From a virus, in the IMG/VR virus record IMGVR_UViG_3300030060_001675, positions 1,176 to 36,804 of that record: DNA of 35,629 nucleotides, one strand, 5' to 3'. Below the pieces are notes generated by a model. That model saw nothing but the letters and a program-made list of their open reading frames with translations. It made no database searches and had not been told where the DNA came from. Below are positions 7,909-26,877 of this stretch, in pieces. Both the position numbers and the translations under genes were made by a program. Position 1 is the first letter of the stretch. Every line of letters starts with the position of its first letter.

Positions 7909-8004
7909 TTGAAAGTTACATGTCCTGGTTGTCAGGAACATCTGAAGGTGGATGGCATGAAATTAAAATGTATGAATAAGAAATGTAAACATTATGGCAA
8001 ATAA
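7909..8004 (+). CDS. 31-aa zinc-ribbon microprotein (TTG start)
   Basis: 31 codons read by hand from a TTG directly after the previous stop: 'KVTCPGCQEHLKVDGMKLKC' and then 'MNKKC'. The cysteine pattern C5-x2-C8 ... C21-x4-C26 is that of a zinc ribbon. It overlaps the start of the terminase gene by 11 bases. No clear ribosome-binding site is present, so expression would depend on coupling. Confidence 0.45.
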   Translation: MKVTCPGCQEHLKVDGMKLKCMNKKCKHYGK

Positions 8005-9913
8005 AAAATTATGTTACGCAGCAGGTTGTTTAAGACCTTTGCCACCTAAAGCAAGTAAGTATTGTAGCACTAGATGTAGAAACAGAATATCACAACAAAA
8101 AAAACGAGCTAAAGCAAAAGGTATAGAGTGGACACAAGAAGAAGATAAATTAAATATACCTAGTCAAAAAACTGTGCAACAACGAAGAGGTAAAGTCTAT
8201 ACAGATTTAATTGAGTCAGAATTAGGTATGCAAATACTACAAAAAAAATTGACCATGTCTGAAGTTGCAAAAATATTAGACACATCAGTTGCATCAGTGT
8301 CTATGGCATACAATGCTTTTGTAGAAGATACAGAAACAAAAGAATTACAAAAAACTTGGGAAGTACCACAAGTTGCAAAAAAAACACTAGAAGATTTTAA
8401 AGATTTTAGAAATAGATATTTTGAAACAGAACAAGGTGTGCCATTTGAAACACCAGAGTTTCACATTAAGTGGATAGAGTCTATATTGACTGCTATAGAA
8501 AATGGTGAACAGCACATGATATTGTCACCACCTAGACATGGCAAGACAGAACTACTAATACATTTTACTGTATGGCTTATCTGTAATAATCCAAACACAA
8601 GAATATTGTGGGTAGGTGGTAACGAAGATATTGCAAAGAACTCTGTGTCTTCTGTAATGGACCAGTTAGAAAATAATGAATTGTTGATAGAAGAAATATG
8701 TGGACCAGGAGCAAAATTTAAACCACAGAACAGAAGTGGTAAGGCTTGGTCATCTACTGAGTTTACTGTAGGTACTAGAACAGTTACAGGTATTAAGTCA
8801 CCTACTATGGTAGGCATTGGTCGTGGTGGTAAAATACTATCAAGAGATTGTGACATAATTATTGCTGATGACATAGAAGACCACAGTTCTACTATGCAAC
8901 CTGCGTCAAGAGAAAACACAAGAAACTGGTGGACTACTACATTATCAAGTCGTAAAGAGGAACATACTGCAATGGTAGTTATTGGTTCAAGACAACACTA
9001 TGACGATTTATATTCTCATCTTTTAGAAAACGAGTCTTGGGTAACTACAGTAGAAGAAGCACACGATACAAGTTGTAATTTGCCTGATTGGAATGAAGAA
9101 GAACATCAAAATTGTATGTTATGGAAAGGCAAGAGAACTTACAAGTGGTTAATGGATAGAAAAAGAGCAGCAGAAACTACAGGTGGTAGAGCAATATACG
9201 AAATGGTTTATCTTAATGTAGCTATGCCAGATGGTCTTGCTTTGTTTGACAGAGCAGAAATAGAAGCATGTAGAGACCAAAAGAGAGACATAGGACAAAT
9301 ACCACCAGGCACTAGACTTATTGCAGGATTAGACCCTGCGTCTACAGGTTATCAAGCTGCATTTTTGTGGGCATACAATATGGATGCAAACAAATTGTAT
9401 ATGGTAGATATGAACAATAGTTTAGGTGGAGGTATACCACAAGCATTAACTGTAATTAAAGAATGGTGGAGTAAATATAATTTATCACATTGGGTTATTG
9501 AAGAAAATGGTTTTCAAAAAGCTATACGACAAGACAGAAGCATAAGAGAGTTTGCATCAACACATGGTATATTTTTGGAAGGTCACGAAACATATAAAAA
9601 TAAATTTGACCCAGTTTATGGTGTAACAGCTATGAGACCTATGTATCAAGAAGAAATAATTTCTTTGCCATATCTTAGCTTTGAAGCCCAAGAGAAGGTA
9701 AACTTATATACAAGTCAGTTAGTATATTTTAGTTCTGCTAAAAACAAGAGCAAAAGTATTGGAACAAAAACTGACATAGTTATGGCAAGTTGGTTTCCAA
9801 TGAGAGCTATAAGAAGAATGCAAAAAGAAAAGTTTGCAGAATTAGGATATGAGTATAGTCCTAGCTTTACTGGCTATGAATCTAGTAACATGGACTTAGA
9901 TAACTGGAGTTAA
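7994..9913 (+). CDS. terL: Terminase large subunit with N-terminal zinc-finger and HTH extension
   Basis: 639 aa. This is the packaging motor: an ATPase that pumps DNA through the portal and a nuclease that cuts it. The ATPase has Walker A SPPRHGKT (178-185) and Walker B DIIIADD (287-293). The RNase H-like nuclease has Asp447 (GLDPAS), Glu503/504 (VIEEN) and Asp594 (TDIVMAS). The first ~110 residues are unusual: a Cys4 cluster (C7, C12, C24, C28; CYAAGC and YCSTRCRNR) and an HTH-like segment (LTMSEVAKILDTSVASVSMA, 86-105). Site-specific DNA recognition is normally the job of the small subunit, and I see no separate small-subunit gene nearby. A fused recognition domain is therefore plausible. 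The portal gene starts directly after its stop. Confidence 0.95.
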   Translation: MANKKLCYAAGCLRPLPPKASKYCSTRCRNRISQQKKRAKAKGIEWTQEEDKLNIPSQKTVQQRRGKVYTDLIESELGMQILQKKLTMSEVAKILDTSVASVSMAYNAFVEDTETKELQKTWEVPQVAKKTLEDFKDFRNRYFETEQGVPFETPEFHIKWIESILTAIENGEQHMILSPPRHGKTELLIHFTVWLICNNPNTRILWVGGNEDIAKNSVSSVMDQLENNELLIEEICGPGAKFKPQNRSGKAWSSTEFTVGTRTVTGIKSPTMVGIGRGGKILSRDCDIIIADDIEDHSSTMQPASRENTRNWWTTTLSSRKEEHTAMVVIGSRQHYDDLYSHLLENESWVTTVEEAHDTSCNLPDWNEEEHQNCMLWKGKRTYKWLMDRKRAAETTGGRAIYEMVYLNVAMPDGLALFDRAEIEACRDQKRDIGQIPPGTRLIAGLDPASTGYQAAFLWAYNMDANKLYMVDMNNSLGGGIPQALTVIKEWWSKYNLSHWVIEENGFQKAIRQDRSIREFASTHGIFLEGHETYKNKFDPVYGVTAMRPMYQEEIISLPYLSFEAQEKVNLYTSQLVYFSSAKNKSKSIGTKTDIVMASWFPMRAIRRMQKEKFAELGYEYSPSFTGYESSNMDLDNWS

Positions 9914-11707
9914 ATGGTTTTAGATAACGATAAGATTTACGATAGGATTGATTACTTAAGGTCAATTAACAATGACCAACTTGTAGACAGGTCAAGAATT
10001 AGAGACATTATGAATGGTGGCGAAGCTGCTGTTCGTGCATTGTTAGGTGATGCTATGAATGTAGAATATCACGAATTACCTGCACCTAATATGTTTTTGA
10101 CTGCACTAGAAAGGTTTGCACAAAAATTAGGTAGAAGTCCTGATTTAAAAATAGATATTATAAACGACAAAGATTCTGAAAGAGCAAAAAAGAAATCTGA
10201 AAAATTAGAACGAATAGTTATGGCGTATGATAAATACCAAAAACTACACATGCAATTACCACAAGTTGGTAGATGGTTGCCAGGTTATGGTTTTGTTGTA
10301 TGGGTTATAAAACATAGAAGAGATAAAGATGGTAACCCATATCCTTATGCAGAATTAAGAGACCCATTTACATGTTATCCAGGATATTTTGGCAATGACC
10401 AACAACCTACAGAAATGGCTATAATAACTAGAGTTCCACATAAAATATTAGCAGACCAATATCCTGAAGCTAAAAACATAATTATGACGACAGGAGAAGA
10501 AGAAACATCACCATACTCTGTTTTATATAACTCTTCTGACAGAATGAGTAGTTGGGCTAACTCATCAGGTCATGGAAAAGTTGTTGTAGAGTATATGACT
10601 TCAGAAGGAACTTATGTATATTTACCTGAAAATAAAAAAACTATTGACTACATGGAAAGTCCTTTAAAATCAGGACCATGTTTTGTTATAGCTAAAAGAT
10701 ATTCATTTGACCAAATGCAATCACAATTTCAACACATTACTGGTCTTATGGCTAATATGGCAAAAATTAACATACTTGGAACTATTGCTATGGAAGATGC
10801 AGTATTTACAGAAACAAATATTGTTGGTGAAATAGAATCAGGAAAATATCGTAAAGGTAGATTTGCTGTAAACTATTTAGCTCCTGGTTCACAAGTTTCA
10901 AAGCCAGTAAATAATTTACCATACCAACTATTTCAACAAGTAGATAGACTTGAAAGACATTTAAGACTTGGTGCTGCTTATCCAGTATCTGATGATGGAC
11001 AATCGCCTAACAGTTTTGTTACAGGTAGAGGATTAGAAGAACTAGGTCAGTCTGCTTCATTGCATGTTAGAGAATATCAACAAGTACTAGCTGAGGCTAT
11101 AGAGGAATTAGATGCAAAAAGATTAGAATATGATGAATCAATGTTTGGAAATACAAGAAAACCTATTGCAGGTTATCATAAAGGAACTGCTTACAAAGAA
11201 TCATACACACCAAATTCAGACATAAAAGAATTTTATACAACTAGAAGAGTTTATGGTGTTATGGCAGGATTTGATGAACCACAAAAAATTATTACAGGTT
11301 TGCAATTAAAACAACAAGGTATTATTGATACACAGACATTACAAGAAAACATGGATGGTTTAGATAATATAACAAAAATACAACAACGAATAAGTTCTGA
11401 AAAAGCAGAGACAGTATTGTTTGAATCTTTAATGGCACAAGCTGCACAAGGAGACCCTAAAGCAACTATGGCAGCTATAGAAATTAGAAAAACTCCACAA
11501 AATATGTCAAAGATATTAGATAAATATTTTACACCAGAAGAACCAGAGATGTCAGAAAATGAATTAGCGTTAGCAGGTCAAGGAGTTTTACCACAACAAA
11601 TACCTGCACAAGAACCAGATATTGCTACAGTATTAGCAGGACTTGCAGGAGCACCAGGTGGACCAGGACCAGGTGGACCAGTACTACCAGGAGGACCAGT
11701 TGCCTAA
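9914..11707 (+). CDS. Portal protein
   Basis: 597 aa. The portal forms the dodecameric ring through which DNA is packaged and ejected. The identification rests on size, position immediately after the terminase gene, and portal-like composition: an N-terminal helical region with 'RIRDIMNGGEAAVRALLGD', a beta-rich wing ('GYGFVVWVIKHRRDKDGNPY', 'ELRDPFTCYPGYFG'), and a long helical stem and crown (about 330-560) ending in Gln-rich helices. The last ~25 residues are Gly/Pro-rich (GGPGPGGPVLPGG). The codons for that tail also supply an AGGAGG ribosome-binding site for the next gene. No catalytic motif is expected. Confidence 0.8.
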   Translation: MVLDNDKIYDRIDYLRSINNDQLVDRSRIRDIMNGGEAAVRALLGDAMNVEYHELPAPNMFLTALERFAQKLGRSPDLKIDIINDKDSERAKKKSEKLERIVMAYDKYQKLHMQLPQVGRWLPGYGFVVWVIKHRRDKDGNPYPYAELRDPFTCYPGYFGNDQQPTEMAIITRVPHKILADQYPEAKNIIMTTGEEETSPYSVLYNSSDRMSSWANSSGHGKVVVEYMTSEGTYVYLPENKKTIDYMESPLKSGPCFVIAKRYSFDQMQSQFQHITGLMANMAKINILGTIAMEDAVFTETNIVGEIESGKYRKGRFAVNYLAPGSQVSKPVNNLPYQLFQQVDRLERHLRLGAAYPVSDDGQSPNSFVTGRGLEELGQSASLHVREYQQVLAEAIEELDAKRLEYDESMFGNTRKPIAGYHKGTAYKESYTPNSDIKEFYTTRRVYGVMAGFDEPQKIITGLQLKQQGIIDTQTLQENMDGLDNITKIQQRISSEKAETVLFESLMAQAAQGDPKATMAAIEIRKTPQNMSKILDKYFTPEEPEMSENELALAGQGVLPQQIPAQEPDIATVLAGLAGAPGGPGPGGPVLPGGPVA

Positions 11708-11909
11708 TATTAATAAAGAATTTTTTGATATTATTAACCAAGAAGATTGGTCAGAAGATGTATTTACAGGTTTAGAAGAAGATGTAACTTTTTTACAAAA
11801 TACTAATCTTCCAATAGGAGATATTATTTTTCCAACACCTATTCCTGGTATATGGATTAATTTAAATTTAGGATTTGAAATAGAAAGACCAGAAGATTTA
11901 GATGGTTAG
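11700..11909 (+). CDS. Hypothetical protein (69 aa, TTG start)
   Basis: Chosen start is the TTG at 11700, which overlaps the portal stop and stands 5-6 bases behind AGGAGG. A TTG at 11643 would give 88 residues but lacks such a site and lies deep in the portal gene. The protein is acidic with many aromatic and Ile residues (INKEFFDIINQEDWSEDVF; IIFPTPIPGIWINLNLGFEI). Function unknown; probably a small virion or assembly protein because of its position. Confidence 0.6.
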   Translation: MPNINKEFFDIINQEDWSEDVFTGLEEDVTFLQNTNLPIGDIIFPTPIPGIWINLNLGFEIERPEDLDG

Positions 11910-12252
11910 AAAAAGTAAAGCTATGAGAGAAGCAACTGATTTAACACAAGCAGGTGTATTCGCTGACATTGTTGCTCCTCCAAGAAAAAAAGGCGACCCA
12001 ACAGGGCAAAGCACAGCATTAACAAATCAAGCAGATGCAATAAGTCCACTTGCACAACAAGCTGTTAATACAGGTGGTATGTTAAATTATCAACCACAAG
12101 ATATATTAGGTATGCCAACAGACAGACCTGATGAATCAGGATTAGCAGATACTTCTGGACAACAAGTTGTAAATTTACCACAAGGAACAGATACACAAAT
12201 ACTTATTGAACTAATTAAGGAAAAAGCTCCAGTAACTAGACAGAGGTTTTAA
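11902..12252 (+). CDS. Hypothetical protein (116 aa)
   Basis: 116 aa overlapping the preceding gene by 8 bases and abutting the giant gene. A basic N-terminus is followed by a Gln/Ala/Gly/Pro-rich, probably disordered middle and a C-terminal helix (DTQILIELIKEKAPVTRQRF). Low-complexity proteins between portal and internal proteins are common, but I recognise no family. The C-terminal helix may be an interaction tail. Confidence 0.6.
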   Translation: MVRKSKAMREATDLTQAGVFADIVAPPRKKGDPTGQSTALTNQADAISPLAQQAVNTGGMLNYQPQDILGMPTDRPDESGLADTSGQQVVNLPQGTDTQILIELIKEKAPVTRQRF

Positions 12253-15200
12253 ATGTACATTTATAATAAATGGAATAAAGACTTCTACCAAAAGCATGAC
12301 GAATGGAATGCTTATAAAAAAAGAAAAGATACTACAAAAGCAAATACAGATGTAGAAGCTGTTACACAAAATTTTGTGGATTTAAAAAACCTAACACCAT
12401 TAGAAATGGATGAGTTAGTTGCGTCAGCAGCAGATTTAAATGTTACACCACAACAATATTACGAATTGTATAAAACTACTAAACCAATACAAGTAAATAT
12501 ACAAAATGGTAAACCTGGCGAAGTAATGAATTTTTTAAAAAAAATACAGTTAGCACACAGAAACAATAAACAAATATATAACGATACAAAAAAAAGATTA
12601 GGTGCCTATGAAAAAGAAAGGTTTTTTGTACAGACTGCTTTTATGACATTAAATTCAGTATTTGATTTAATACAAAGAGGTGTTGTAAATAATTTAGCTA
12701 CACCTTATAACAGAATAGAAGAAGAGGTACTTGCTGAAGAAGGATTAACAAAACAAGATTTAATAGAGTTTGAACAAAAAGGTCGTAATGACAATCAACA
12801 AGAATGGAAAGCTGCAAGAATTCGTGCAAAAACTTATCAGCGTTTATTAGGTTCTTTTCTTGGGCAGGTACCAGAAACAATATTTAACGCTATTGGTTTA
12901 GATACTTCTCTTGATTCTATTTCTGATATAAGGGAAAAATCAAAATCATTTCTTTTATCACAAGGTGTAGTAGATGCTGATGGAGAACCATATTTACAAA
13001 AAACAGATATAGGTGCTGCTATAGATGCAACAAAAGACAAGTTAATAGAAGAAATACAAATACAAGAAAAAGATTTAAAAAGAGACCTAACAGAATTAGA
13101 AAAAATAAATTTAGCTATAAGTAAATGGTATGAAGTTATTACTGAGGAAGTAGACCAAGATAATCAGTTTTTAAATTTAATAGGTGAAGCTACACCTATA
13201 GCAGAGAATAGAAAGTTAAGAGAAGGGTATGAAAGAGCACAAATATCTAGTAATGCAGGAGATTTTGCTAGTTATTTAGTAACAGGTAATATGCCTGGCA
13301 GATACTCACCACAAAATATAATCTATGAAGATACACAATTAGAATACGATTTAAAAGTATTACAAGCAGAACAAGCATTTGATTTAGGTCAAATAACTAT
13401 AGACCAAAAAAACACATTAGTAGATGAAATAGAAGATGAAAGAGATGAAAAACTTAATGAAATATCATTTGAACCTAACAAAGGTTTAGCAGGAATTATG
13501 GGTGGAGCTATGAACCTAGCTGCTATGTATTACACTGACCCAATTATTATGATTGCTAAAGGCGTAGGTATTGCAGGTAAAGTACCTGACAATTTTGACG
13601 AAGTGCTTTCTGCAGCACAAATGGAAATGAAAAGATTTGTTGATGATGGTGGAACTGTAGCTGAGTTCTGGCAAAACAATGATGAAATATTAGATGGACT
13701 ATCAAGAGTTATAGTAGAAGGTAATAAAGCAGGACAACCAACATTTCTTAATTTAATTAACTCTGGTTTTAATCATAAGTTTGCTAAAACATTAGCTGAT
13801 GCAGATAATCCTGCTGTAATTAAAGATGGTTTGATAGATGGTTTTAATAGACAATATGTATCAGATATGGTGTTTGGTGGGGAATCATTAGGTAGAACAG
13901 GTCAATTTAGAATACAAGCAAAAGTATTATCAGATAATTTATTAAGAGCATTTAGCGATAGAGAATTAGACGATAGCATTCAAGCAGTAAGTAGAAGGGG
14001 TGGAACATTAAAAGAATTAAGAGATGGCACTGATGTTAGGTTAGCAAACGCAGGAGAAGTAGATATAAGAAATGCACAACCTGCAGTTGTTATGTTTGCA
14101 AGAGTAGGTAATCTTTTTAAAGTTCCAGAAAGTCGATTAAACAAATTACTAACAGATTTTTATGATGCTATTGACGAAGGATTGTATACACAGGCACAAG
14201 AAATTTATTTTGATGGATTAATTAGAACAGAAGGTGGTTTGCAACTTAGATACCTGTATGGTTTATCAGATAATGAAATAGATTTAGTTTTAGGGGAAGC
14301 CTTAAAAAAAGAAAAAAGAATGTTTTCAGATGATATTGCTGATTTCTTTACACCATCAAGAACTGATGAATTTTATCCTGTAGATGAAATAGATATATTA
14401 ACACAAAAACAATTTGGTGGACAAGTAGAAGGTATAGAAATACCACATGAATTTGTAAGAAACTCTATAGAATTAATTAATCAATTTAAAGGTTACACCA
14501 TTGAAGTGCCAGATGTAATAAAAATAATTAAGGTAACATCACAAAGAAGAAGACTTAGAGCACAGGCATTAATAGAAAAAAAAGGTATTGATAAAGTATT
14601 TGCTAAAGCAAGACAAGCATTTGATGAAGGAAAACCAGGAACATTTTGGGATGAAGATACGCCTATGGGTGCAATAGTAGGACCAATAGCTAAAGGTTTA
14701 GATGACCCAGGTGATTTATTTAAAACTCAAGAAGTGGTTTTATCTGCTATAGAAAGAGGAGCATTCGGTGTAGTTAGAGGATTGTTTTACCCATTGCAAT
14801 TATTAGGAAGGTTTGCATATCCTGCAAAACTAACAATAGATGGACACTTAAGAGCAGCAGTATTAGGTGCAAGGTCTGCTTTTAGAAGTCCTTTAAAGTT
14901 TCTAAGGTTTATGTTAAATGACGCAAATGGTGTTTTAGCTAGAGCACTTGGATATACACCAGATACATCATTAGTAGGACCATATAAAATTACAAGAAAA
15001 TTAGAATTTAAAAATCCAAGACTACAAGGTATTAATGAAAAAATACCTGCATCAATAAGAAAAGCACTAGGTGTATTTCAAGATAATGCAAATTATGGAA
15101 TACCAGAATTAACTTCATTGTCATCTGCCTCACCAACATTTGCATTCGGTAGAAGAACTCCTGATACAGGTGTTGATTTAATAAATAAACTAGGACAAAA

Positions 15201-18200
15201 AAATGTACCAACACCACAAGGAGAAGTAATAGATTTTCAACTTTCAGATGATTATATAGAGGCAATGCAAGAATACTTATTTGAATATATAGATGATGAG
15301 TTGTCAGTTATAACAGCAGCTTTAATGAAACAAGGTTTAGATTATACAGATATAGCTAAGTTTTATCAGGAGACACCTGCAGTTCAAGCTATTATAGAAC
15401 AAGCAAACAAAATGATGCAATCAAGAAATGTATTTTCAAAAGGAACAATTCCTATAATTACTAAAGAAGAAGATTATTTAAAATTATCTAAACATTATTA
15501 TCAATCAATCAACAATATAACTGGTGGAGACCAAGGTCTTAAAGATATTATTATTACTGGTAGAGTTGGGAATGTAGACTTGCGTAGTCCAGAAGCTATG
15601 ACACCAGAAAATTTAGCTATATACAATGCAAAAGTTAAAAAGTTAGTTATTAAAAATAGACAAAATTTACCTGACCAAGTACCTAAATTAAAACCAGAAG
15701 TAGATGAAAGAAAAGGTTACCAAAGAGCATTGGACTCATTGTTTTTTGCTACTGCACAATTTGAATCTGATTTAATTAGAGTTCCATTGTTTAAACAAGC
15801 ATACGAACATTTTGTATCTGCAGGAATACCATTTACATCTAAGTCAGGTTTAAACAGAATATTAAAAGCTCACTTAGACCCAGAGTCAAATGTTAAATTA
15901 AGTGATGACTTGTTTAAACAAGTACAAGATGAATACAACGCTATAAAAGATTTAGCACCAGACACAAGAGTAATAGACAGAACAGTGCCTGTAAAAGTAT
16001 TTGATAATGAAGATTCTTTATCTATTATTGCATACTCTCCAGAAGGACAAAAAAGTATTGCTTATTTAAAAAGAATAGATAAATTAAATGACCAAATAAC
16101 ATTTGATTTAAATATATACAATACAGAATTAAAAGTATTTGGTAAACAATCAAAAGTTGCAGACTATAGACTAGGTGATGATGGAGATAAAATAGGTGTT
16201 TATAATTTTAATGTTAAAAAATCAGAAGCAATTATAGATGGTGTTATACCTAGTAGAGACGCTTTAATAAATTCATTAAGTAAAACTTTAGATGAGAGTG
16301 TAAATGTAGAAGCATTGGTTGATGATGCTATAGAGTATCTTGCTAGTAGTAAAGGTAAGTTTGATTTACCAGTATCACGAAGAGAACTATATGAAATATT
16401 AGGTATTACAGGTACAGATTATAACTTAGTAGGACTACAAAAAGTATTACAAAGAGGAAAGTTATCAAAAAGTGGAGATGTAGGTCCAAGTACATTAAAC
16501 AGAGTTATAGGACCTAAAAAATCCAGACCTATACTTAGAGGTCAAAAAGAACTAGAAGATGCTATTGATAATGCTTTTGAATATGCAAACGCAAATCCAG
16601 GAGGTTTTAGCATAGATTTAGGTACAAAAACTAATTATCACCAACCAGGTTATTATGTATCACCATATCCAAATAAGTCACTTGTAAAAACTACAGCTTT
16701 GACTAAAGAAGAAATATCTGAATTTGTAATTAAACATAAAACTTTTCTAAAAAAAGAAGACCACTTTTTAGGTGGTTGGGTAGATGAAGATGTAATACAT
16801 TTAGATGTATCTGTAAAAATTAAAAAAGGTGTTGCAGCACAAGTAGTAGATGGAACTGACGAAGCCTTAGCAAAAGCTCAATACTTAGCAATAATTGGAA
16901 ATCAAAAATCTATTGGCAATGTTACTAATAAAGGTTATGTAGGTGAAATATCTAGTCGTAGTGCATCAGGTGCTTATGACATCATAAGAAGAGCAGGTCA
17001 AGATTTATTAATAGGCACACAGAAAAAGTTTTTTCCTGCTAGAAAAGCAATTACTAAATCTGCTTCTGATGCAAAAATAATTGGTAATGATGTATTAGAT
17101 GCTGCAGGTATAAAAGCAATAGTAGACCAAAAAGCAGGGGTTGTACAAATGTTAAAACCACAAACTAATCCAATACTTGGTCAAAGAACATTTAGTGGTG
17201 ATTATCAATCAATGTTAGATTTGTCTGATATTAAATCTTCTACAACACCAAGAGTAATGTCATTTGAAGACTTACATGAAAGAGGGGTAGAGTATGCTTT
17301 TGAATTGCACTCTAGGTTGTTATACAACTTAACAGAAAGAGGGTTCTTTTCACAAGCATATAGAGTTGGTTTTGCTTTCTTTGAGGCATGGCGAGAAGTA
17401 TTAGGTAGATATTATAATTTAAGTTTAGCTAATCCAAAAGCTATAGCACAAATAGGATTTGGTTATAGAAAAGGTATTGAACATAATTTTATATATGAAG
17501 ACCCTACAGGAGAAAAATATCTTATTGTACCTGTAGGTGGAACTCCATTTGAAGATTATGTTAAAACAGAAGGTAGAGGTGTATTTACAGATGATATGGC
17601 AGTTGCTGATTCTAAGATAATTGCTAAAAGAGGTGTACCACTTAGTGCATTAAATGTTGGTGGTGGTGGATTATTTCCACCTGTAGGACCTGCTATTGCT
17701 TTACCTGTGGGTATTTTGCTTAAAGATAAACCAAAAGCAAAAAGAAATTTAGAAAAATATATATTTGGTGGATTTGAATTAACTGGTGCTAGATATGATT
17801 CTATTGGAGATTTACCAGGTATAGTAGCTGAAACACTTATACCTTCTGTAGGAAAACAAATGTTTAATGCTATAGGTACTAAGTTAGGAGTAGCAGGTTT
17901 AGACGAAGACCAATGGCTTTCTGCTGTAGACTCAGCTTATCAACACGCTGCAATATTAAGACCAGACTTAGCAGATGATGTAGTAGCACTAGAAGAAGTA
18001 GCTATGGTATTAGCAGAAAATTATTTTCAATTAAAAGCATGGGATAGATTTGTTAATCCACTTATACCTAGACTGTCAGTACTGTATGCAATAGAAGGTA
18101 ATGAAGTAGCTTTTAAAGAATGGTATGGAGAAAAAGGTGAAGACACTGGTTTAGTTTACAACAACTTTGTTGAGCTATCTGTTATACATGGTTTTTATCA

Positions 18201-19083
18201 AGACATTAAAGATGAGTATGTTATGGCATTAGGGCAACAAGGTGAGTTCTATGCACTGCTTGAAGTAGCTAAATTATTAGGTTTAGACCAAAGAAATCTA
18301 TCAGAAGGTTTTACTTCTGTAGCTTTACAAGTTAAAGGTAAGAATGTATCAGAGGGTGGAAGATTACCTAGAACAACACCAGAATACAATTTCGTATTAG
18401 ATAATTCAGAACTTGCTGCTGAATATGGTCCTGTGTTAGTTTACTTTGCACCTGGTTTAGATGAAGGTGCAACAGAATATGGTGGGGTAAGTTACATATC
18501 TAACTTAGGATTGTTTAGACCAAAAACACCTAATGAATTTTATTTATCAACACAAACATTTCTTGCAAGTGCAATAGAAAGTGCAACTAAAGATTATTGG
18601 TCTACTGTAATTGATAACAGTACAGTAAACCCAGGAGAAAGGGTTGCTAGAAAGAAAGCTAAGTTTGCATTAATAGAAGCAGATTTAGCTAAGATGTTTC
18701 CTATGGCTTATGGTAATTCAACAGAATTAAATAAGGTATTAGGTTCTGATTATGAAACAGGAGTGCCAAATGATGTGCTTATAGATTATTTACAAAGAGC
18801 TGTAAATGACCCAAGGTTTGCTAATTTAGATAACAGAAAAGAAATAGCATTATATTTAAACTTTAGAGCACAAGCTATAGACGCAGTGGCAGATAAAAGA
18901 GGTTATCCTATAGAAGAAGATGCTATAAGATGGATTAGCAGCAATGATTCTGTAGCTGCACAAGAAGTTAGAAATCAGTTGTTTACAAAAGCACAAGAAA
19001 TAGGAAGAAATAATCCTAAATTTTTGGTAATATTTGAAGAGATATTCAGTTACGAATTAACTAAGTTTGGATTAGAGGAATAA
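12253..19083 (+). CDS. Giant virion/ejection protein with polyvalent-type domain (2276 aa)
   Basis: 2276 aa in one uninterrupted frame, starting with GAGG 7 bases ahead of ATG. Mostly helical and charged, with three hydrophobic or amphipathic parts: around 411-445 (GLAGIMGGAMNLAAMYYTDP), 835-880 (GVVRGLFYPLQLLGRFAYPA) and 1800-1825 (LFPPVGPAIALPVGILL). Around 1449-1565 it has a recognisable pattern: 'GGFSIDLGTKTNYHQPGYYV', 'EISEFVIKHKTFL', 'FLGGWVDEDVIHLDVSV', 'GNQKSIGNVTNKG'. Similar 'GGFT...GYxV...LGGWxD...LDVS...QxAI' stretches occur in phage and conjugative-element polyvalent proteins. Placed between portal and scaffold in a genome without a tape measure, it is best read as an internal protein ejected with the DNA. 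No transglycosylase or polymerase motif was seen. Family call uncertain. Confidence 0.7.
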   Translation: MYIYNKWNKDFYQKHDEWNAYKKRKDTTKANTDVEAVTQNFVDLKNLTPLEMDELVASAADLNVTPQQYYELYKTTKPIQVNIQNGKPGEVMNFLKKIQLAHRNNKQIYNDTKKRLGAYEKERFFVQTAFMTLNSVFDLIQRGVVNNLATPYNRIEEEVLAEEGLTKQDLIEFEQKGRNDNQQEWKAARIRAKTYQRLLGSFLGQVPETIFNAIGLDTSLDSISDIREKSKSFLLSQGVVDADGEPYLQKTDIGAAIDATKDKLIEEIQIQEKDLKRDLTELEKINLAISKWYEVITEEVDQDNQFLNLIGEATPIAENRKLREGYERAQISSNAGDFASYLVTGNMPGRYSPQNIIYEDTQLEYDLKVLQAEQAFDLGQITIDQKNTLVDEIEDERDEKLNEISFEPNKGLAGIMGGAMNLAAMYYTDPIIMIAKGVGIAGKVPDNFDEVLSAAQMEMKRFVDDGGTVAEFWQNNDEILDGLSRVIVEGNKAGQPTFLNLINSGFNHKFAKTLADADNPAVIKDGLIDGFNRQYVSDMVFGGESLGRTGQFRIQAKVLSDNLLRAFSDRELDDSIQAVSRRGGTLKELRDGTDVRLANAGEVDIRNAQPAVVMFARVGNLFKVPESRLNKLLTDFYDAIDEGLYTQAQEIYFDGLIRTEGGLQLRYLYGLSDNEIDLVLGEALKKEKRMFSDDIADFFTPSRTDEFYPVDEIDILTQKQFGGQVEGIEIPHEFVRNSIELINQFKGYTIEVPDVIKIIKVTSQRRRLRAQALIEKKGIDKVFAKARQAFDEGKPGTFWDEDTPMGAIVGPIAKGLDDPGDLFKTQEVVLSAIERGAFGVVRGLFYPLQLLGRFAYPAKLTIDGHLRAAVLGARSAFRSPLKFLRFMLNDANGVLARALGYTPDTSLVGPYKITRKLEFKNPRLQGINEKIPASIRKALGVFQDNANYGIPELTSLSSASPTFAFGRRTPDTGVDLINKLGQKNVPTPQGEVIDFQLSDDYIEAMQEYLFEYIDDELSVITAALMKQGLDYTDIAKFYQETPAVQAIIEQANKMMQSRNVFSKGTIPIITKEEDYLKLSKHYYQSINNITGGDQGLKDIIITGRVGNVDLRSPEAMTPENLAIYNAKVKKLVIKNRQNLPDQVPKLKPEVDERKGYQRALDSLFFATAQFESDLIRVPLFKQAYEHFVSAGIPFTSKSGLNRILKAHLDPESNVKLSDDLFKQVQDEYNAIKDLAPDTRVIDRTVPVKVFDNEDSLSIIAYSPEGQKSIAYLKRIDKLNDQITFDLNIYNTELKVFGKQSKVADYRLGDDGDKIGVYNFNVKKSEAIIDGVIPSRDALINSLSKTLDESVNVEALVDDAIEYLASSKGKFDLPVSRRELYEILGITGTDYNLVGLQKVLQRGKLSKSGDVGPSTLNRVIGPKKSRPILRGQKELEDAIDNAFEYANANPGGFSIDLGTKTNYHQPGYYVSPYPNKSLVKTTALTKEEISEFVIKHKTFLKKEDHFLGGWVDEDVIHLDVSVKIKKGVAAQVVDGTDEALAKAQYLAIIGNQKSIGNVTNKGYVGEISSRSASGAYDIIRRAGQDLLIGTQKKFFPARKAITKSASDAKIIGNDVLDAAGIKAIVDQKAGVVQMLKPQTNPILGQRTFSGDYQSMLDLSDIKSSTTPRVMSFEDLHERGVEYAFELHSRLLYNLTERGFFSQAYRVGFAFFEAWREVLGRYYNLSLANPKAIAQIGFGYRKGIEHNFIYEDPTGEKYLIVPVGGTPFEDYVKTEGRGVFTDDMAVADSKIIAKRGVPLSALNVGGGGLFPPVGPAIALPVGILLKDKPKAKRNLEKYIFGGFELTGARYDSIGDLPGIVAETLIPSVGKQMFNAIGTKLGVAGLDEDQWLSAVDSAYQHAAILRPDLADDVVALEEVAMVLAENYFQLKAWDRFVNPLIPRLSVLYAIEGNEVAFKEWYGEKGEDTGLVYNNFVELSVIHGFYQDIKDEYVMALGQQGEFYALLEVAKLLGLDQRNLSEGFTSVALQVKGKNVSEGGRLPRTTPEYNFVLDNSELAAEYGPVLVYFAPGLDEGATEYGGVSYISNLGLFRPKTPNEFYLSTQTFLASAIESATKDYWSTVIDNSTVNPGERVARKKAKFALIEADLAKMFPMAYGNSTELNKVLGSDYETGVPNDVLIDYLQRAVNDPRFANLDNRKEIALYLNFRAQAIDAVADKRGYPIEEDAIRWISSNDSVAAQEVRNQLFTKAQEIGRNNPKFLVIFEEIFSYELTKFGLEE

Positions 19084-19084
19084 T

Positions 19085-20077
19085 ATGTCAATTGTTACAA
19101 CTACAACTACTACTCAACCCTTTGGTGGTGTAGGTAGTGGTGATGCAGCAGGTGGTGGTGATGGTCCTGATGAAGATTTTTACACAAGAATTGAATCTAT
19201 ATTAGATGGAACAACTGCAGGTAATAAAACACCATTAGGTAATGGTTATTTAAAAGAGTATGAAATTCAATTAGAAAATCAAGACCCAACAAAAGAACCT
19301 ACTGTAAAATTAGTGCCTGTTGAAGAGTTCTTAACATCTGACGAATACCAATCACAAAGAAGAGAATTATTAGGTCAAGGTGCTGCATACAACTATGTAT
19401 ATTTTCCACCAGACATTGGAGCACAAGCAAGGTTGCAAACACCATACATTAGAGTACAAACTAAAAATTTATTAGCTGCTGCAGGACTTATAGATTTAAA
19501 TAAAACTGTAGGTGCAGAAATAGATAATGAGTATCTTAAAGGAATAAAAGCTGCTATGGAGTTTTCTATGAACAATGGTGGACAAATGTCATGGGTAGCA
19601 GGACTAAAAATATTAGCAAGTGCAACACAAGGTTCACAGCTATCAGCACTAGGTGGTGGATATAGTTTTGGTGATGAAGCGTTAAATGAGTTTGTTGACG
19701 AAATGGTAAGTAAAGCAGAAACAAGAAAAGGTGCACCATTGTCAAACTATGAGAAACAATACATTACAGCTAAATTAACTGATGGACCTGCAGAAGAATT
19801 TAAACAATCACTTTCAGGATTAGCAGCAGGAACAGCACCTACTTTAGGTTACGACACGCAAACTGGTCAAGCAATCCAAACACCAGGTACAGGAGCTGAT
19901 GAACCAGATATAGATATTCTTACAGAAGGTGGACAAGATGTATTAGATGAAATATTTGAACCTAGAGAAGAACTACAAAGACAAGCAGATGTAGAAGACC
20001 AAACATTCTATAGGATGCAAAGAAATTTAGCAGGATTAAAAGCTGCTGAATCACGACCAGTACAAAGGGTAACATAA
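19085..20077 (+). CDS. Hypothetical virion protein (330 aa)
   Basis: 330 aa. It opens with a Thr/Gly-rich, likely disordered tail (SIVTTTTTTQPFGG; GDAAGGGDGPDED). A mixed alpha/beta centre follows (KLVPVEEFLTSDEYQSQRRE; AAMEFSMNNGGQMSWVAGLK), then a helical C-terminal third with an acidic patch. No family recognised. A GAGGA site precedes the ATG and the end overlaps the lysozyme ATG by one base. By position it is a structural or internal virion protein. Confidence 0.6.
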   Translation: MSIVTTTTTTQPFGGVGSGDAAGGGDGPDEDFYTRIESILDGTTAGNKTPLGNGYLKEYEIQLENQDPTKEPTVKLVPVEEFLTSDEYQSQRRELLGQGAAYNYVYFPPDIGAQARLQTPYIRVQTKNLLAAAGLIDLNKTVGAEIDNEYLKGIKAAMEFSMNNGGQMSWVAGLKILASATQGSQLSALGGGYSFGDEALNEFVDEMVSKAETRKGAPLSNYEKQYITAKLTDGPAEEFKQSLSGLAAGTAPTLGYDTQTGQAIQTPGTGADEPDIDILTEGGQDVLDEIFEPREELQRQADVEDQTFYRMQRNLAGLKAAESRPVQRVT

Positions 20078-20871
20078 TGGAAATGGAAATATCACCTCCT
20101 GCAATAGAAATTATAAAAGAATATGAGACTTTGCAACTAACAGCATATCGAGATGGAGAATCTGTATCTATTGGTTATGGACACAGTAATTTAAGTGGTG
20201 GTGAACAATTTGAATTAGGTGACACAATTACAGAAGAAAAAGCTAATGAATTGTTGTTAGCTGATTTAGAAGAAATTGAAAGAATTGTAAATCAAAGAAT
20301 GAAAAATTATGATGTAACATTTACCCAGGGTCAATATGATGGCATGGTAGTAGGAACATTTAATAGACCAGAACAATTAAAATCAAAAAGTTTATATGAG
20401 ACAGTATCTAGTGGAGACACAGATGCAATTACTAAATCTTGGAATAATACTATATCAGATAAAGATAAAGAAAATTATCCTGGTTTAGTTGATAGACAAA
20501 CAGCAGAACTAGGTTTAATAATACCTAAAGAAGAAGTAACAACAGATACTACAGCTACTATGGAAGGAGAACCAAATCCAGATTACGAATCACCACAAGG
20601 TAATGTGCCAGGTTTTGACCCAAGTCAACCAACCAAAGCACAGAGAGTTTCTACACCACCTATGACAGATTCACAAATGTATGAGTATACATCACAAGTA
20701 CCATTAGCTGCACAAAATACAGCTTATGGTAGAGTTAGACAAATGTTAGAAGCACAAGTAAACAAACAAAAAAAACAAGCAGGTCATTCAGTTGTTCCTG
20801 GCGTAGGACCACAAGTTAAAATTGCACTGGACGAAGCAATAAAAGTTGCATTTAAGTTGTTAGGAAGATAA
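20077..20871 (+). CDS. Virion-associated lysozyme (GH24/T4-like) with C-terminal extension
   Basis: 264 aa. Residues ~8-150 align by eye with T4-type lysozymes (muramidases), which cut the MurNAc-GlcNAc bond of peptidoglycan: 'IIKEYETLQLTAYRDGESVS' then 'IGYGHSN'. By comparison with T4 (Glu11, Asp20, Thr26), the catalytic residues would be Glu17, Asp26 and Ser31, so the Thr is replaced by Ser and the loop is one residue shorter. Residues ~160-264 form a Pro/Gln/Thr-rich linker and a basic C-terminal helix, longer than a typical endolysin tail. The gene sits among virion genes, so a wall-piercing role during entry is more likely than, or additional to, release lysis. Confidence 0.8.
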   Translation: MEMEISPPAIEIIKEYETLQLTAYRDGESVSIGYGHSNLSGGEQFELGDTITEEKANELLLADLEEIERIVNQRMKNYDVTFTQGQYDGMVVGTFNRPEQLKSKSLYETVSSGDTDAITKSWNNTISDKDKENYPGLVDRQTAELGLIIPKEEVTTDTTATMEGEPNPDYESPQGNVPGFDPSQPTKAQRVSTPPMTDSQMYEYTSQVPLAAQNTAYGRVRQMLEAQVNKQKKQAGHSVVPGVGPQVKIALDEAIKVAFKLLGR

Positions 20872-20960
20872 TGGCAGAAAGAATACCATCAGAATTGCTT
20901 AAAGAAAATTTAAAGAGACATAAAGAGATAAAGAAAAAATATGGCTCTCACATTAAATGA
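20871..20960 (+). CDS. Basic microprotein (29 aa)
   Basis: 29 codons read by hand: MAERIPSELLKENLKRHKEI, then KKKYGSHIK. It begins in the TAATG overlap with the lysozyme gene and ends 20 bases inside the next gene, whose ATG it may help translate. It is predicted helical and strongly basic. It fills what would otherwise be the only gap in the block, but nothing else confirms it. Confidence 0.45.
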   Translation: MAERIPSELLKENLKRHKEIKKKYGSHIK

Positions 20961-23451
20961 TTTAACAACTGTTAGATACAGCATACTTTCAGACTTTTTA
21001 AAATCAATAGGTATTAGTCTTAGACAATTAAGAGCAGAAACATTACAAGAATTTTTAACAACTCCTGATGGTTGGGCACATATAAATGCAGAAGAATTTA
21101 TGACTCAAAAAATGTTTGATGCTATAAAGGAAACAAAAAATTTAAACATGGATGCTTATGCTAAGTACATAGACGAAGTGCAAGAGTATGTAGAAGCTAT
21201 AAAAAAACTAGGTGTAGATTTTGGAGAAGCAAAGTATGGATTTAGTGCTGACCCAAAAGCAGAGTATGAAACTCGTATTATAGAAACACAAGAAAGTGCT
21301 TTTCCATGGGAAGCAAATAATACAGAGATAGATAAGTTAGTAGATTATTACGACAATTATCCAGAAGGAAGATTAACATCAAAAGACCAGTGGTTACGAA
21401 CAGTATTAGAAGAAGCTGTAGAACACATAGCTACTAATGAAGTAATATCTTTGAGACATGTAATGCCTGAAAGTTGGGAGTTTAGACACTTAATAAAAAA
21501 TGCTCCTAAGATAATTGAATTTTTAGAAAAAGGTATTGCTGAAGGAAAATTTAGTCAAGAAGTAGTAGATAGTATTTTTGAAAATATGAATCCTTTTATA
21601 GGTAGTCATATAGTAAGAGACCCAAATGGTGGTGGTGCAGGTAAATATGCAGAGATATTTACATTACAAGAATTTAAAGATGTTTATTACAACCGATTTA
21701 TACCAGATTTTTACAAAAAAGGACAAGAGTATGTAAATGGAACTGGTGATGGTTTAAGATTTTATACCAATGAAGCTATGGCTTTGACTGACCCATATCA
21801 TGTATTTATAGGCTACGCCAGAGTAGATACACCATACTTACAAATGTTAGATGGTATTGGTACTCAAATACTGACACCAGAATTTCAAAAAAGAGCTGCA
21901 GAAAAAGGCATTGTGGATGTTGCGTTAGTAGAATCTGAGAATGACCTTATAAAACTTCAAGATGTAATAAAAGAAATAAATGAGGATTTTCCAGAATTAA
22001 ATGATGCTATGGCAACTATGAAAAGAAATAAATTTGCTGTAGAAGGGAAAAGAAATAAATTTGCTGTAGATTTAGATATAGCAAGTACAGATATAAGAAG
22101 AGCTGTTGTAGATGTTCCAGAAATACTAGAACAAGTAGACAACATTGTAAAAGGTAATCCAGTAAATGCAGCACCTACAAAATTAATAAAGACCACACCT
22201 CCTAATCAAACACTAAAAGTTAGTAGTGAAACAGGTTTGTCATCTCATAGCGATAGGATTAGACAAGTAGCACAAGACTATCACAAGATAATGGGATATT
22301 CTGACCCAGAGTTTAAACCTGCCATGGTGTTTAATGATGAGATAGGTGCAGCAGCAGCAGATATATTTGAACAACTACCTATGTTTGATGACAATGCAAT
22401 ACCTTATTACAATAAGTTTATACAAGAAACTAATATGCAGTATCAAGTATTACTAGATGCAGGTATGGAGTTTGAAGTAGTAGATGGAGACCCATATACA
22501 CCTAATAGAGCAGGTCACCAACAAATGATAGCTGATATGGAAAATAGTAAATTAAAAGTATTAGCTACAGAAGCAGGATTTGGTGATGAAGCTACAAGTA
22601 AATTAAATCCTATGTTAGCTGAATCTAAATACACAGATGTTAATGGAAGAGTAATGCTAGAGAATGATGTCTTTAAAGCTGTACATGACACCTTTGGACA
22701 TGGTATGAGAGGTAATACTTTTGGTCCAGTAGGTGAATACAACGCATGGTTAGCTCATAAAGAGATGTATTCTGCAGATGCTAGAAGAGTTATGACTACA
22801 GAAACATTAGGTCAAAATACATTTACAAATTATGGACCACACATGAGAGATGCAAATGGTAATCTACTAGGTAAGTCAGACGCAGGATATATTAAACCTG
22901 CTGATAGACCATTCGCATCACAAAAAGTAGCATTAATGCCAGAAGAAATAATAAATGTTGCAGGAACTGTAGTAGAAGATGCTACTGATATTGTTACACA
23001 AGAAGGTGTAAATAAAACTACACAATTAGCAAATACAAATCCAGAAATGTCAAAAAGTTTATGGAATACTTCTAAAAATGTTGTAGGTAAAGTATTTAAT
23101 ACAGCAGCAGGTGTGTTAGACCCAGGTGATGTAGCCATAACACAAGGTATAGCAAGAGTGTTGCCTAGAATAGGATTAACAGCAATAGCAGCACCTGCAT
23201 TAGCAGCTTATGTGTTTTATGAATTGTCAGTATTAGCTGTTGATGCAGCATCAGCATTACAAAAAGCTGCAGAAAAACAAGGCGTAGCAGGTATTGGTGA
23301 AGAACAAGATGTTGATTGGAAACAATTAGGTAAAGATACATTTAGAGAATTTGGAGATATATCTGACACATGGTCGTTGTCATGGAAGATAAGTGAACCT
23401 ATAATTGATTATGCTTTCAATGAAGCTGCTACACTAATGGAAAACAGGTAA
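20941..23451 (+). CDS. Large virion protein with HDxFGH ... TETxGQN domain (836 aa)
   Basis: 836 aa. The N-terminal half is helical and acidic with no recognised domain. Residues ~485-635 form a distinct domain: 'YNKFIQETNMQYQVLLDAGM', 'NDVFKAVHDTFGHGMRG' (His582, Asp583, His587), 'EYNAWLAHKEMYSADARRVM' and 'TTETLGQNTFTNYG'. I recall the same HDxFGH/HxxMYS/TETRGQN set in phage polyvalent proteins; its activity is not established, though the invariant His/Asp/Glu/Gln set suggests an enzyme. A hydrophobic segment at ~744-772 (IGLTAIAAPALAAYVFYELS) could enter a membrane. A 9-residue tandem duplication (KRNKFAVEG/KRNKFAVDL) lies at 361-378. Position suggests a second ejected or internal protein. 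Confidence 0.65.
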   Translation: MALTLNDLTTVRYSILSDFLKSIGISLRQLRAETLQEFLTTPDGWAHINAEEFMTQKMFDAIKETKNLNMDAYAKYIDEVQEYVEAIKKLGVDFGEAKYGFSADPKAEYETRIIETQESAFPWEANNTEIDKLVDYYDNYPEGRLTSKDQWLRTVLEEAVEHIATNEVISLRHVMPESWEFRHLIKNAPKIIEFLEKGIAEGKFSQEVVDSIFENMNPFIGSHIVRDPNGGGAGKYAEIFTLQEFKDVYYNRFIPDFYKKGQEYVNGTGDGLRFYTNEAMALTDPYHVFIGYARVDTPYLQMLDGIGTQILTPEFQKRAAEKGIVDVALVESENDLIKLQDVIKEINEDFPELNDAMATMKRNKFAVEGKRNKFAVDLDIASTDIRRAVVDVPEILEQVDNIVKGNPVNAAPTKLIKTTPPNQTLKVSSETGLSSHSDRIRQVAQDYHKIMGYSDPEFKPAMVFNDEIGAAAADIFEQLPMFDDNAIPYYNKFIQETNMQYQVLLDAGMEFEVVDGDPYTPNRAGHQQMIADMENSKLKVLATEAGFGDEATSKLNPMLAESKYTDVNGRVMLENDVFKAVHDTFGHGMRGNTFGPVGEYNAWLAHKEMYSADARRVMTTETLGQNTFTNYGPHMRDANGNLLGKSDAGYIKPADRPFASQKVALMPEEIINVAGTVVEDATDIVTQEGVNKTTQLANTNPEMSKSLWNTSKNVVGKVFNTAAGVLDPGDVAITQGIARVLPRIGLTAIAAPALAAYVFYELSVLAVDAASALQKAAEKQGVAGIGEEQDVDWKQLGKDTFREFGDISDTWSLSWKISEPIIDYAFNEAATLMENR
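22021..22070 (+). repeat. Tandem 23-bp repeat, 27-bp period, in the 836-aa gene
   Basis: Bases 22021-22043 and 22048-22070 are identical, giving the KRNKFAV duplication. The period is a multiple of three, so the reading frame is kept. Confidence 0.9.
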
Positions 23452-23453
23452 AC

Positions 23454-25292
23454 ATGGCATTAACAGCGATAGAACGAAGACAATTACTAATAGATTTAGT
23501 TAGTGGTCGTATATCTCAAGAAGAATATAACTCAATAATGCAATATCAATTAAGAAGAGACGCACAAACAAGTCAAGGTATGACACCTCTTCCATTAACA
23601 GAAGCAGAAAAAAGATTAATTCAAAGAGCTAACTCTGGTAGAAATACAACAGTAACTCCTACTACATCAGCAGACCAAGTTATACCACCACAAAGTGAAT
23701 TTGGACCTTCTACACCTATAAACCCAGAAACAGGATTTCCTAGAAGACCAGAGGATGAAGTAGACCCACCGAATACTAGATTTCCTAGAAGACCAGAGGA
23801 TGAACCAGTGCCAGATTACCAAGACCCAATGGGTATGTATAGTTCAGAATTTAGACAAGGCAGTGCACCATCTCAAGTTGCAGGAGCTACTGGTGGTAGT
23901 AGTGTTGTTAGTGGTTCTGGTAATGAATTATATATTGTTGTAGGACAACCAGGTTCTTACACAATAAGAAAAGTAGATTCAGGTAATGAAAATGAAGTAG
24001 AATCAGGAATGTCTGAACAAGCAGCACAAGAAACTGCAGATTCTTTAAACGCACAATTTGTTGCTAGTGGTGGTGGTGGTTCAGAAACTGGTGATGGTGG
24101 AGCAACAGGTGACCCAGAGGGTTTTGTTAACAGTCAGATATGGGAATACAATGGAGAAAAACATGTAGTTTGGCAAGTACCAAATACAATGATATTTATG
24201 CGTTACCTTGCATCTGATAGCGAATTAGATATGTTATACAGTGGTAGGCAAAGACCTGATGTTGTACAAGCAACAGATGAAATGTGGACTAGCTCTGTAT
24301 TTTTTGGAAATGTTAATGAATTAGATGAAAAAGTAATTACACAAGGAATGAGTCCATTTTTTGGATTTGCAGATAATTTTGAAAAAGCAACATTAGGCAG
24401 ACCATGGTTAAAAACAAATGACGAAATGTTTGCGTTATGGGTTGAAGGATATGTAGAAGATAGAGATATTAGTACAGAGGAATGGGCTAACACTGATTGG
24501 TGGAACAACAGCACTAAAGAAGAAAGAGATTGGTTAGTTCTATCTAAAGGCAGAGGTATCGGAGATGCAGATTTTCCTGCTGATGCAAAGGTAACACTTG
24601 AACAAAATAGAATTTTATATTTAGAGGCAATGAAACAAGCAGGTATTGCTAATGCAGATAAAATTAGAGATGCTAATGGTAACTCATTAGCTGAGTGGTT
24701 TGCAGATAAAGTTACCTTTGGAACTTTTGATGCAGTAAAAGCAACAGAACAAATAGAAGCTCTATCAGATAGAACATCTGGTATACAAGTAGATGAAAGA
24801 ATAAGCACATGGCTTGAAGGTAAAGGTGAAGTAGACCAAACTAGAGCAGGTTATGCTACAGCAAGAAGTTTAGCATTAGAATGGCTAGGTCCAGTGTATG
24901 GTTCTATAGATGAAACCAAATTAGAAGAGTATGCAAGTATTGTTAGAAATGCTCAAAACCCAGACATTGGAGCTGATTTATTAAGAGAAGAATTAAAAGC
25001 ACAAAGAAAAGTATTATTTAATTCAGATATTTATGATGAGAACTTAACTTATAAACAAATTGCAGCACCATGGCAAAACTATTCTTTTCAGTTCTTAGGC
25101 GAAAGAATAGATGAAACATCACAGAACTGGTTAAATGTTTTGTTATCTAATGACCAGAACATGGCAGACAAAGAACTTACAGCTTATGGTTTAAACAACA
25201 ATATAGAAAAAGTAGTAGAGTCGTTAGCAGATAGTGTAGCACAATCAGTAGGTGTATCTGAGTCTGGAGTGCAGAGAGGGTTTAGTACATAA
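23454..25292 (+). CDS. Hypothetical virion protein (612 aa)
   Basis: 612 aa. An N-terminal helix pair (ERRQLLIDLVSGRISQEEYN) is followed by a Pro/Thr/Glu-rich disordered region with the duplicated motif FPRRPEDE (about 95-120). Next come a Gly/Ser-rich stretch, a small beta-like module (ELYIVVGQPGSYTIRKVDSG) and a long helical C-terminal region (about 250-600) with repeated 'EWLG..YG' and 'TARSLALEWLGPVYG' elements. No enzyme motif was found. Position in the block suggests an internal or structural protein. Confidence 0.6.
   Translation: MALTAIERRQLLIDLVSGRISQEEYNSIMQYQLRRDAQTSQGMTPLPLTEAEKRLIQRANSGRNTTVTPTTSADQVIPPQSEFGPSTPINPETGFPRRPEDEVDPPNTRFPRRPEDEPVPDYQDPMGMYSSEFRQGSAPSQVAGATGGSSVVSGSGNELYIVVGQPGSYTIRKVDSGNENEVESGMSEQAAQETADSLNAQFVASGGGGSETGDGGATGDPEGFVNSQIWEYNGEKHVVWQVPNTMIFMRYLASDSELDMLYSGRQRPDVVQATDEMWTSSVFFGNVNELDEKVITQGMSPFFGFADNFEKATLGRPWLKTNDEMFALWVEGYVEDRDISTEEWANTDWWNNSTKEERDWLVLSKGRGIGDADFPADAKVTLEQNRILYLEAMKQAGIANADKIRDANGNSLAEWFADKVTFGTFDAVKATEQIEALSDRTSGIQVDERISTWLEGKGEVDQTRAGYATARSLALEWLGPVYGSIDETKLEEYASIVRNAQNPDIGADLLREELKAQRKVLFNSDIYDENLTYKQIAAPWQNYSFQFLGERIDETSQNWLNVLLSNDQNMADKELTAYGLNNNIEKVVESLADSVAQSVGVSESGVQRGFST
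23734..23804 (+). repeat. 26-bp direct repeat in the 612-aa gene, 45-bp period
   Basis: Bases 23734-23759 and 23779-23804 are identical and encode the two FPRRPEDE copies, 15 codons apart and in frame. Confidence 0.9.
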
Positions 25293-26158
25293 TGGCAAAC
25301 ATAACAGTAGCAGGATTACAAAATCTAAAAAACAGAACTAAACAAAAATTTGGTAATTTATTGCCAGACGAATTACTAAACATATATGTAGCTGCTTTTG
25401 TTGATTCAGGTAATGACCCTGAACAAGCTATAAATGCAGTAAGGACTTCTAATGCTTATCAAAATATTTATCCAGGTAATTTAAACCCAGATGGTGTTAC
25501 CACAAAATATACAGAAGCAGAATACTCACAATTAATAGATGGTTACAAAAGAAAGTTTGAAGCATTAGGTATTAATGCAGATGTAGTATTAACTGACGAA
25601 AGAAAAAAACAATTAGTAGATAATGTTGTATCACCTAATGAATTAGGAACTAGGATTGATGCTGTATATTCAGGCATAGTAACTGCAATACCAGAAGTAA
25701 AAGAATTTTACTCAAGAAATTTTGGCAGAACACTGACTGATGCAGAAATAATTGCTAGTGCTATTGACCCTAAAGTAGGTGAAGGTATTATTTCAGGCAC
25801 TATCTCAGCAAAAGATGTAGTTTCACAAAATGTTATTAGAGCACAAATAGGTGGTCAAGCATTATTAGCAGGTACAGATATTTCTATGGAAGCAGTTGAA
25901 TCATTGAGGCAACAAGGAATAGACCCTAGAGCTGCTAGAGAAGCATTTAATCAAGTTCAAAATATACAACAAGCAGCGTTAGCACAAGGCAGAGATATAC
26001 CAGAGGTACAAGATATTGTTGAAGGATTACAACTAGGAGATATGGAAGACCTTACAAATATATCTAATATACTTAGACAACAAGCATCACAAAGTTCTGC
26101 AGTAGCAGGAGCAAGACAAACACAACAAGGACAAGTTACTGGTCTTACAGAACAATAG
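25292..26158 (+). CDS. Hypothetical virion protein (288 aa)
   Basis: 288 aa, helical. Residues ~25-95 have the pattern 'ELLNIYVAAFVDSGNDPEQA ... VRTSNAYQNIYPGNL ... YTEAEYSQLIDGYKRKFEALGIN'. The 'YQxxYPGN......T(E)AEYxxLxxxYxxxLxxxGI' sentence occurs in structural proteins of actinobacterial phages, as I remember them. The C-terminal third is Gln/Ala-rich helix. Function unknown. It is the last gene of this block before the scaffold promoter. Confidence 0.6.
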   Translation: MANITVAGLQNLKNRTKQKFGNLLPDELLNIYVAAFVDSGNDPEQAINAVRTSNAYQNIYPGNLNPDGVTTKYTEAEYSQLIDGYKRKFEALGINADVVLTDERKKQLVDNVVSPNELGTRIDAVYSGIVTAIPEVKEFYSRNFGRTLTDAEIIASAIDPKVGEGIISGTISAKDVVSQNVIRAQIGGQALLAGTDISMEAVESLRQQGIDPRAAREAFNQVQNIQQAALAQGRDIPEVQDIVEGLQLGDMEDLTNISNILRQQASQSSAVAGARQTQQGQVTGLTEQ

Positions 26159-26817: not shown

Positions 26818-26877
26818 ATAGTTTAAATCTTCTTCCAAAAAAAAGTATTAAAAAATAATTTATAGGAGAAGATAAAA

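Follow-up and report, generated by a model that had tools for sequence, protein, structure and literature searches.

A conserved giant protein of an uncultured podovirus-type phage is probably an internal virion protein and carries a domain shared with cyanophage internal virion proteins

About a fifth of the viral DNA analysed here, a stretch of 35,629 nucleotides (the window) taken from the 36.8-kb IMG/VR record IMGVR_UViG_3300030060_001675, is occupied by a single open reading frame, which raises the question of what kind of protein it encodes and whether this protein belongs to the virion. A first-pass annotation of the sequence had described a 2276-aa giant that is probably ejected. The reading frame itself was confirmed. 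It starts with ATG, runs through 2276 uninterrupted codons (12253..19083; this and the window features named below lie on the + strand) and makes up 19.2% of the window. Homologues of its product, P0001 (the giant protein), were found in approximately 25 IMG/VR contigs, with identities of 52–92% for full-length and down to 43% for partial homologues; the full-length ones, present in many contigs, measure 2276–2305 aa. Comparison with relatives showed that identity is highest at the second, lower at the first and lowest at the third codon position, for example 0.79/0.88/0.66 at positions 1/2/3 against the homologue of locus L003. Because of the full-length homologues and this order of codon-position identities, the frame is a genuine conserved gene under purifying selection and not a chance ORF. 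According to the conservation profile and alignment, the best-conserved stretch covers residues 1650–1850 (17200..17802).

None of the family libraries searched (Pfam, PHROG etc.) gives the giant protein a name, and no match was obtained in Pfam, NCBIfam or PADLOC, in GenBank phages by tblastn with the whole protein, or in genome contigs searched for a host or prophage. Sequence searches of the PDB returned nothing significant, as did Foldseek of the giant models against the PDB (best E 1.6). In agreement with the first-pass annotation, no transglycosylase, polymerase or tape-measure family was matched in the Pfam, PHROG, NCBIfam and PDB sequence searches. Amphipathic or hydrophobic patches had been noticed; hydrophobicity proved weak, with one 19-residue peak just above 1.6 (residues 1805–1823), and clear transmembrane helices are absent. 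AF2 models of the two halves were poor, with a mean pLDDT of 47 and 44.5, and are interpretable only at residues ~1392–1570. At this low confidence, the protein appears mostly helical, with short broken helices and one alpha/beta domain.

The giant gene lies beside late virion genes, in a series of tightly spaced same-strand genes running from the large terminase (TerL; 7994..9913; phrog_38, E 3e-66) to the major capsid protein (MCP; 26878..27996; phrog_1328, E 1e-28). It follows the gene of a 597-aa portal protein (9914..11707) and a 116-aa ORF that is kept in relatives (11902..12252). Downstream, genes of 330 aa (19085..20077), 264 aa (20077..20871), 836 aa (20941..23451), 612 aa (23454..25292) and 288 aa (25292..26158; phrog_8424, with a weak hhalign match to Immanuel3 gp13, prob 54) precede a 148-aa ORF (26371..26817), a probable scaffold by its position before the MCP only (hhalign prob 2 to Immanuel3 gp62). 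The location between portal and scaffold given in the first-pass annotation was thus loose: five genes separate the giant from the scaffold position. The 264-aa protein is a lysozyme (PF00959, E 1.7e-18; phrog_7), either an endolysin or a virion muramidase. A 359-aa tail protein (28528..29607; phrog_1101) is encoded behind the MCP, and no Rfam elements or tRNAs were found in the window. The MCP is of the type of mycobacteriophage Bernal13 and stands beside Beephvirinae-like TerL and portal genes, which suggests an older mosaic of the head genes.

TerL (hhalign prob 99.6), portal (prob 99.0 to gp03, residues 2–544 vs 2–535) and the tail protein (prob 98.2 to gp54) are remote homologues of proteins of Streptomyces phage Immanuel3. 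This phage belongs to the Beephvirinae, whose gene order is similar: TerL, portal, a 1648-aa protein of unknown function (gp09) after the portal and, further downstream, MCP and tail. Abafar, another member, is podoviral by TEM and has a 16-nm tail (PMC11536984). No tape-measure, tail-tube or sheath gene was recognised in the window. The same was true for tail tube and tape measure among the larger ORFs of a 43.3-kb relative (G003), in which the genes of both window ends are joined around the circle and which appears to span the whole gene circle; beyond the structural block these ORFs encode a glycine-rich fibre domain, a tryptophan halogenase, a 2OG-Fe(II) oxygenase, an exonuclease and unknowns, with a 659-aa and a 649-aa ORF left without assignment. 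Based on the Immanuel3-like TerL, portal and gp54, the short tail of Abafar and the lack of a recognised tape measure or tube, the phage is probably of the short-tailed podovirus type, its morphology being deduced from kinship with the Beephvirinae. Two side observations concern these relatives. G002 and G003 (loci L076–L081; 41.7 and 43.3 kb) have different start genes, and their gene order connects the two ends of the window, which is what circular or circularly permuted genomes would show. In G003, the tryptophan halogenase gene is located near that of the 2OG-Fe(II) oxygenase, downstream of the tail fibre (L080, 11931-14349).

Comparison of the window with its relatives revealed conflicting histories for the giant and the capsid genes. 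Against G002, identity is 98% for TerL, 97% for portal and 95% for MCP, whereas it falls to 52% for the giant, 61% for the 330-aa gene and 67% for the 288-aa gene. Against G001, values of 73% for the giant and 75% for the 288-aa gene were obtained, compared with 70% for the portal and 44% for the MCP. In trees, the window portal clusters with L021-like phages and the window giant with L003-like phages; forcing the alternative grouping was rejected (AU p 0.015 for portal and 6e-7 for the giant), in quick trees that contain a long L051 branch. As judged from these identities and trees, the giant and its downstream neighbours, including the co-varying 330-aa gene and the 612- and 288-aa genes, are inherited as a cassette and exchanged separately from the capsid genes. 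This fits internal proteins that function jointly. Seen along the window, the mosaicism is reciprocal, with positions 11708-26158 differing in their nearest relatives from positions 7994-11707 and 26371-27996.

The one long stretch of the giant protein that AF2 models with confidence (pLDDT 70–87 over most of it) is an alpha/beta domain at residues 1436–1558 (16558..16926), which we call the GGW domain after its pattern G..G..F..L..G(G)W..LDVS..A..Q. The first-pass annotation had placed a polyvalent-type domain at residues 1449–1565; a real domain that moves among phages is present at about this position, but it belongs to none of the Pfam polyvalent domains, and no Pfam model covered it in the proteins scanned. 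An HMM built from five outside members (SS120-1, S-CBP42, P60, E3 gp68 and Keelan gp73), with the giants excluded, matched 14/14 giants in the set, with E-values between 8e-12 and 4e-9, but 0/300 shuffles. Conversely, an HMM built from the giants alone, with E-values set for 1000 sequences, matched S-CBP42 gp11 (E 9e-6), E3 gp68, SS120-1 and Syn5 gp45, and P60 marginally. Slice-wise comparison, as had been proposed for checking the protein, recovered the domain in cyanophage internal virion proteins by hhalign (prob 95.7, E 1e-8). The Foldseek matches among viral models (BFVD) comprised phage proteins of 120–206 aa (prob 1.00) and an XkdF-annotated protein, and were assigned to the GGW domain by their length because the output carried no aligned query coordinates.

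The domain is thus common to Rhodococcus phage E3 gp68, mycobacteriophage Alice gp99 and large cyanopodovirus proteins of 1415–1807 aa (Syn5 gp45, P60 gp34, S-CBP42 gp11 and SS120-1 CYYG_00031), which PHROGs labels 'internal virion protein' (phrog_6651) and which occupy the position of T7 gp16. Furthermore, it stands alone in small actinophage proteins such as Keelan gp73; within IMG/VR, a domain scan detected the giant family only. By these profile matches, GGW is a module found in several phage proteins that belong to the virion or are associated with it. The residues that are invariant across diverse members (Gly, Leu, Trp and Ala) are nonpolar, a pattern that points to a role in binding or in structure/scaffolding rather than to an enzyme. 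As the domain covers ~5% of the giant's length and also occurs in small stand-alone proteins, its presence alone is no proof of a virion location.

A second domain links the giant to its neighbour. Residues ~442–680 of the 836-aa protein (22264..22980) form the HDxFGH domain, which was found in 200 phage records, among them E3 gp205, annotated 'structural protein' (E 2e-19), and a 4012-aa protein of Microcystis phage Mel-JY33 (E 4e-38). The 836-aa protein shares 31% identity with Alice gp99, a 433-aa protein holding both the HDxFGH and the GGW domain. Independent evidence comes from the family of Alice gp99, phrog_3170, whose first part matches the 836-aa protein and whose second part matches E3 gp68. 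The HDxFGH domain appears enzyme-like and has no Pfam match. Among relatives, the length of the 836-aa gene product varies from 719 to 1361 aa, with a conserved block of ~420 aa retained. The Mel-JY33 protein, from a podovirus-like phage (L087, 11692-23730), is annotated 'lysin' and also contains LPD22 (E 5.7e-6, just under the curated cut-off); with its HDxFGH domain it looks more like a polyvalent ejection protein than a lysin.

Taken together, the Immanuel3-like TerL, portal and tail genes, the Beephvirinae gene order, the lack of a tape measure, the shared GGW domain and the cassette exchange make it likely that the giant is an internal virion (ejection) protein of a podovirus-type phage. 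This is the same conclusion that the first-pass annotation had reached. Its context has the features of podoviral internal proteins: the gene lies in a structural operon with portal and MCP, and no tape measure was recognised. Homology to annotated internal virion proteins extends over the GGW domain (1436–1558) and not over the full length. From gene context and analogy, we infer a role in genome delivery. The giant and the 330-, 836-, 612- and 288-aa proteins, perhaps joined by the neighbouring lysozyme, would be synthesized late, packaged in the head close to the portal and ejected before the DNA or along with it. The ejected set might then help to build or line a path through the cell envelope, like T7 gp14/15/16, which serve as the model of such a delivery apparatus (PMC8954989).

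Among the alternatives, a virion-delivered polyvalent effector with several activities, acting on the host after ejection (anti-restriction or takeover) and partnered by the 836-aa HDxFGH protein, is possible and overlaps with the preferred reading, since the giant is in the virion under both. The co-occurrence of GGW and HDxFGH in Alice gp99 and phrog_3170, the HDxFGH domain beside LPD22 in the 4012-aa podoviral protein, and the description by Iyer et al. (PMC5512222) of polyvalent proteins encoded close to the late virion genes of phages are in line with such an effector. Polyvalent proteins are, however, defined as single polypeptides that combine at least two domains with disparate biochemical activities, and they commonly, though not universally, carry a zincin metallopeptidase (HExxH or HExxxH) that serves in processing (Iyer et al., PMC5512222). 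The giant has one recognisable and non-catalytic-looking domain with nonpolar invariant residues; no enzymatic domain or Pfam polyvalent/LPD model was found in it, and the HExxH/HExxxH motif is absent in all 17 giant homologues. Therefore, the term 'polyvalent protein' in its strict sense is not supported for the giant. PADLOC gave no defence-related match. Polyvalent proteins usually shuffle their domains, whereas the giant has the same architecture in all homologues. The giant may still function like a polyvalent protein. None of our observations shows it countering host defences, and the counter-defence or takeover role raised by the first-pass annotation is speculative and unproven. Somewhat more doubtful still is the idea that GGW and HDxFGH together make up a single effector system delivered by phages, each being one half of it. 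The halves would be fused in Alice gp99 and here carried on two co-ejected virion proteins, with a conserved host target in bacteria as far apart as Actinobacteria and Cyanobacteria.

It is improbable that the giant acts outside the virion, as an early or replication protein located in the structural cluster by chance. Such a role would agree with the stand-alone GGW domains of small actinophage proteins like Keelan gp73, but the genes from TerL to MCP are closely packed on the same strand and the homologous domain resides within annotated internal virion proteins. Finally, the giant could be a tape measure from a phage with a long tail whose tube genes lie elsewhere, the condition that the first-pass annotation had named as refuting its reading. 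Size, the mostly helical low-confidence model and an MCP similar to that of the long-tailed phage Bernal13 could suggest this. It was rejected as very improbable and largely refuted, as the portal, TerL and tail kin are podoviruses, a search of the window and of the near-complete relative G003 recognised neither tape-measure families nor tail-tube or chaperone genes, the helices modelled at low confidence are broken and accompanied by an alpha/beta domain, and the gene adjoins the portal and precedes the MCP instead of standing behind tail-tube genes.

With these data, an uncultured podovirus group gains a family of probable giant internal proteins that had no annotation, and the GGW domain is defined as common to internal virion proteins of cyanophages and proteins of actinophages. 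Its link with HDxFGH provides a lead on cargo that phages deliver besides DNA. A cassette of internal proteins that moves independently of the capsid genes offers a way to ask whether the delivery machinery matches the host.

How does the giant compare with known systems? No homology to T7 gp16 was detected, and no N-terminal transglycosylase was found in Pfam and PHROG searches. The N4 virion RNA polymerase (3500 aa), which is ejected (PMC12633501), is likewise a giant podoviral protein carried in the virion. A virion RNA polymerase identity was nevertheless rejected, because Pfam and PHROG searches matched no single-subunit RNA polymerase domain in the giant. Beephvirinae gp09 resembles the giant in following the portal, and the TerL, portal and tail genes around it are homologous to those of the window, but it has no GGW domain (no match to the giants-only HMM), and whole-length hhalign was not significant. 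Sliced hhalign gave one weak motif, which we do not claim as homology because its E of 8e-4 was reached in one of 140 slice comparisons; a similarity seen by eye near residues 1690–1840 was unsupported and dropped. With polyvalent proteins (Iyer et al. 2017, PMC5512222), the giant shares its size, its late virion region and the kind of domain that is met in giant or virion-associated proteins of phages, but not the MPTase, ART, LPD or other catalytic domains. Alice gp99 (phrog_3170) combines GGW and HDxFGH domains as the window phage does, except that they are fused in a small protein of long genomes there and lie on separate proteins here. Virion proteins of the cyanopodovirus Syn5 were reportedly examined by mass spectrometry by Pope and co-workers in 2007. 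The cyanopodovirus internal virion proteins (phrog_6651) differ from the giant in gene position, after the tail tubular genes instead of between portal and MCP, and homology was detected nowhere outside GGW; in their large size (1415–1807 aa), their podoviral structural operon and their GGW domain they are like the giant.
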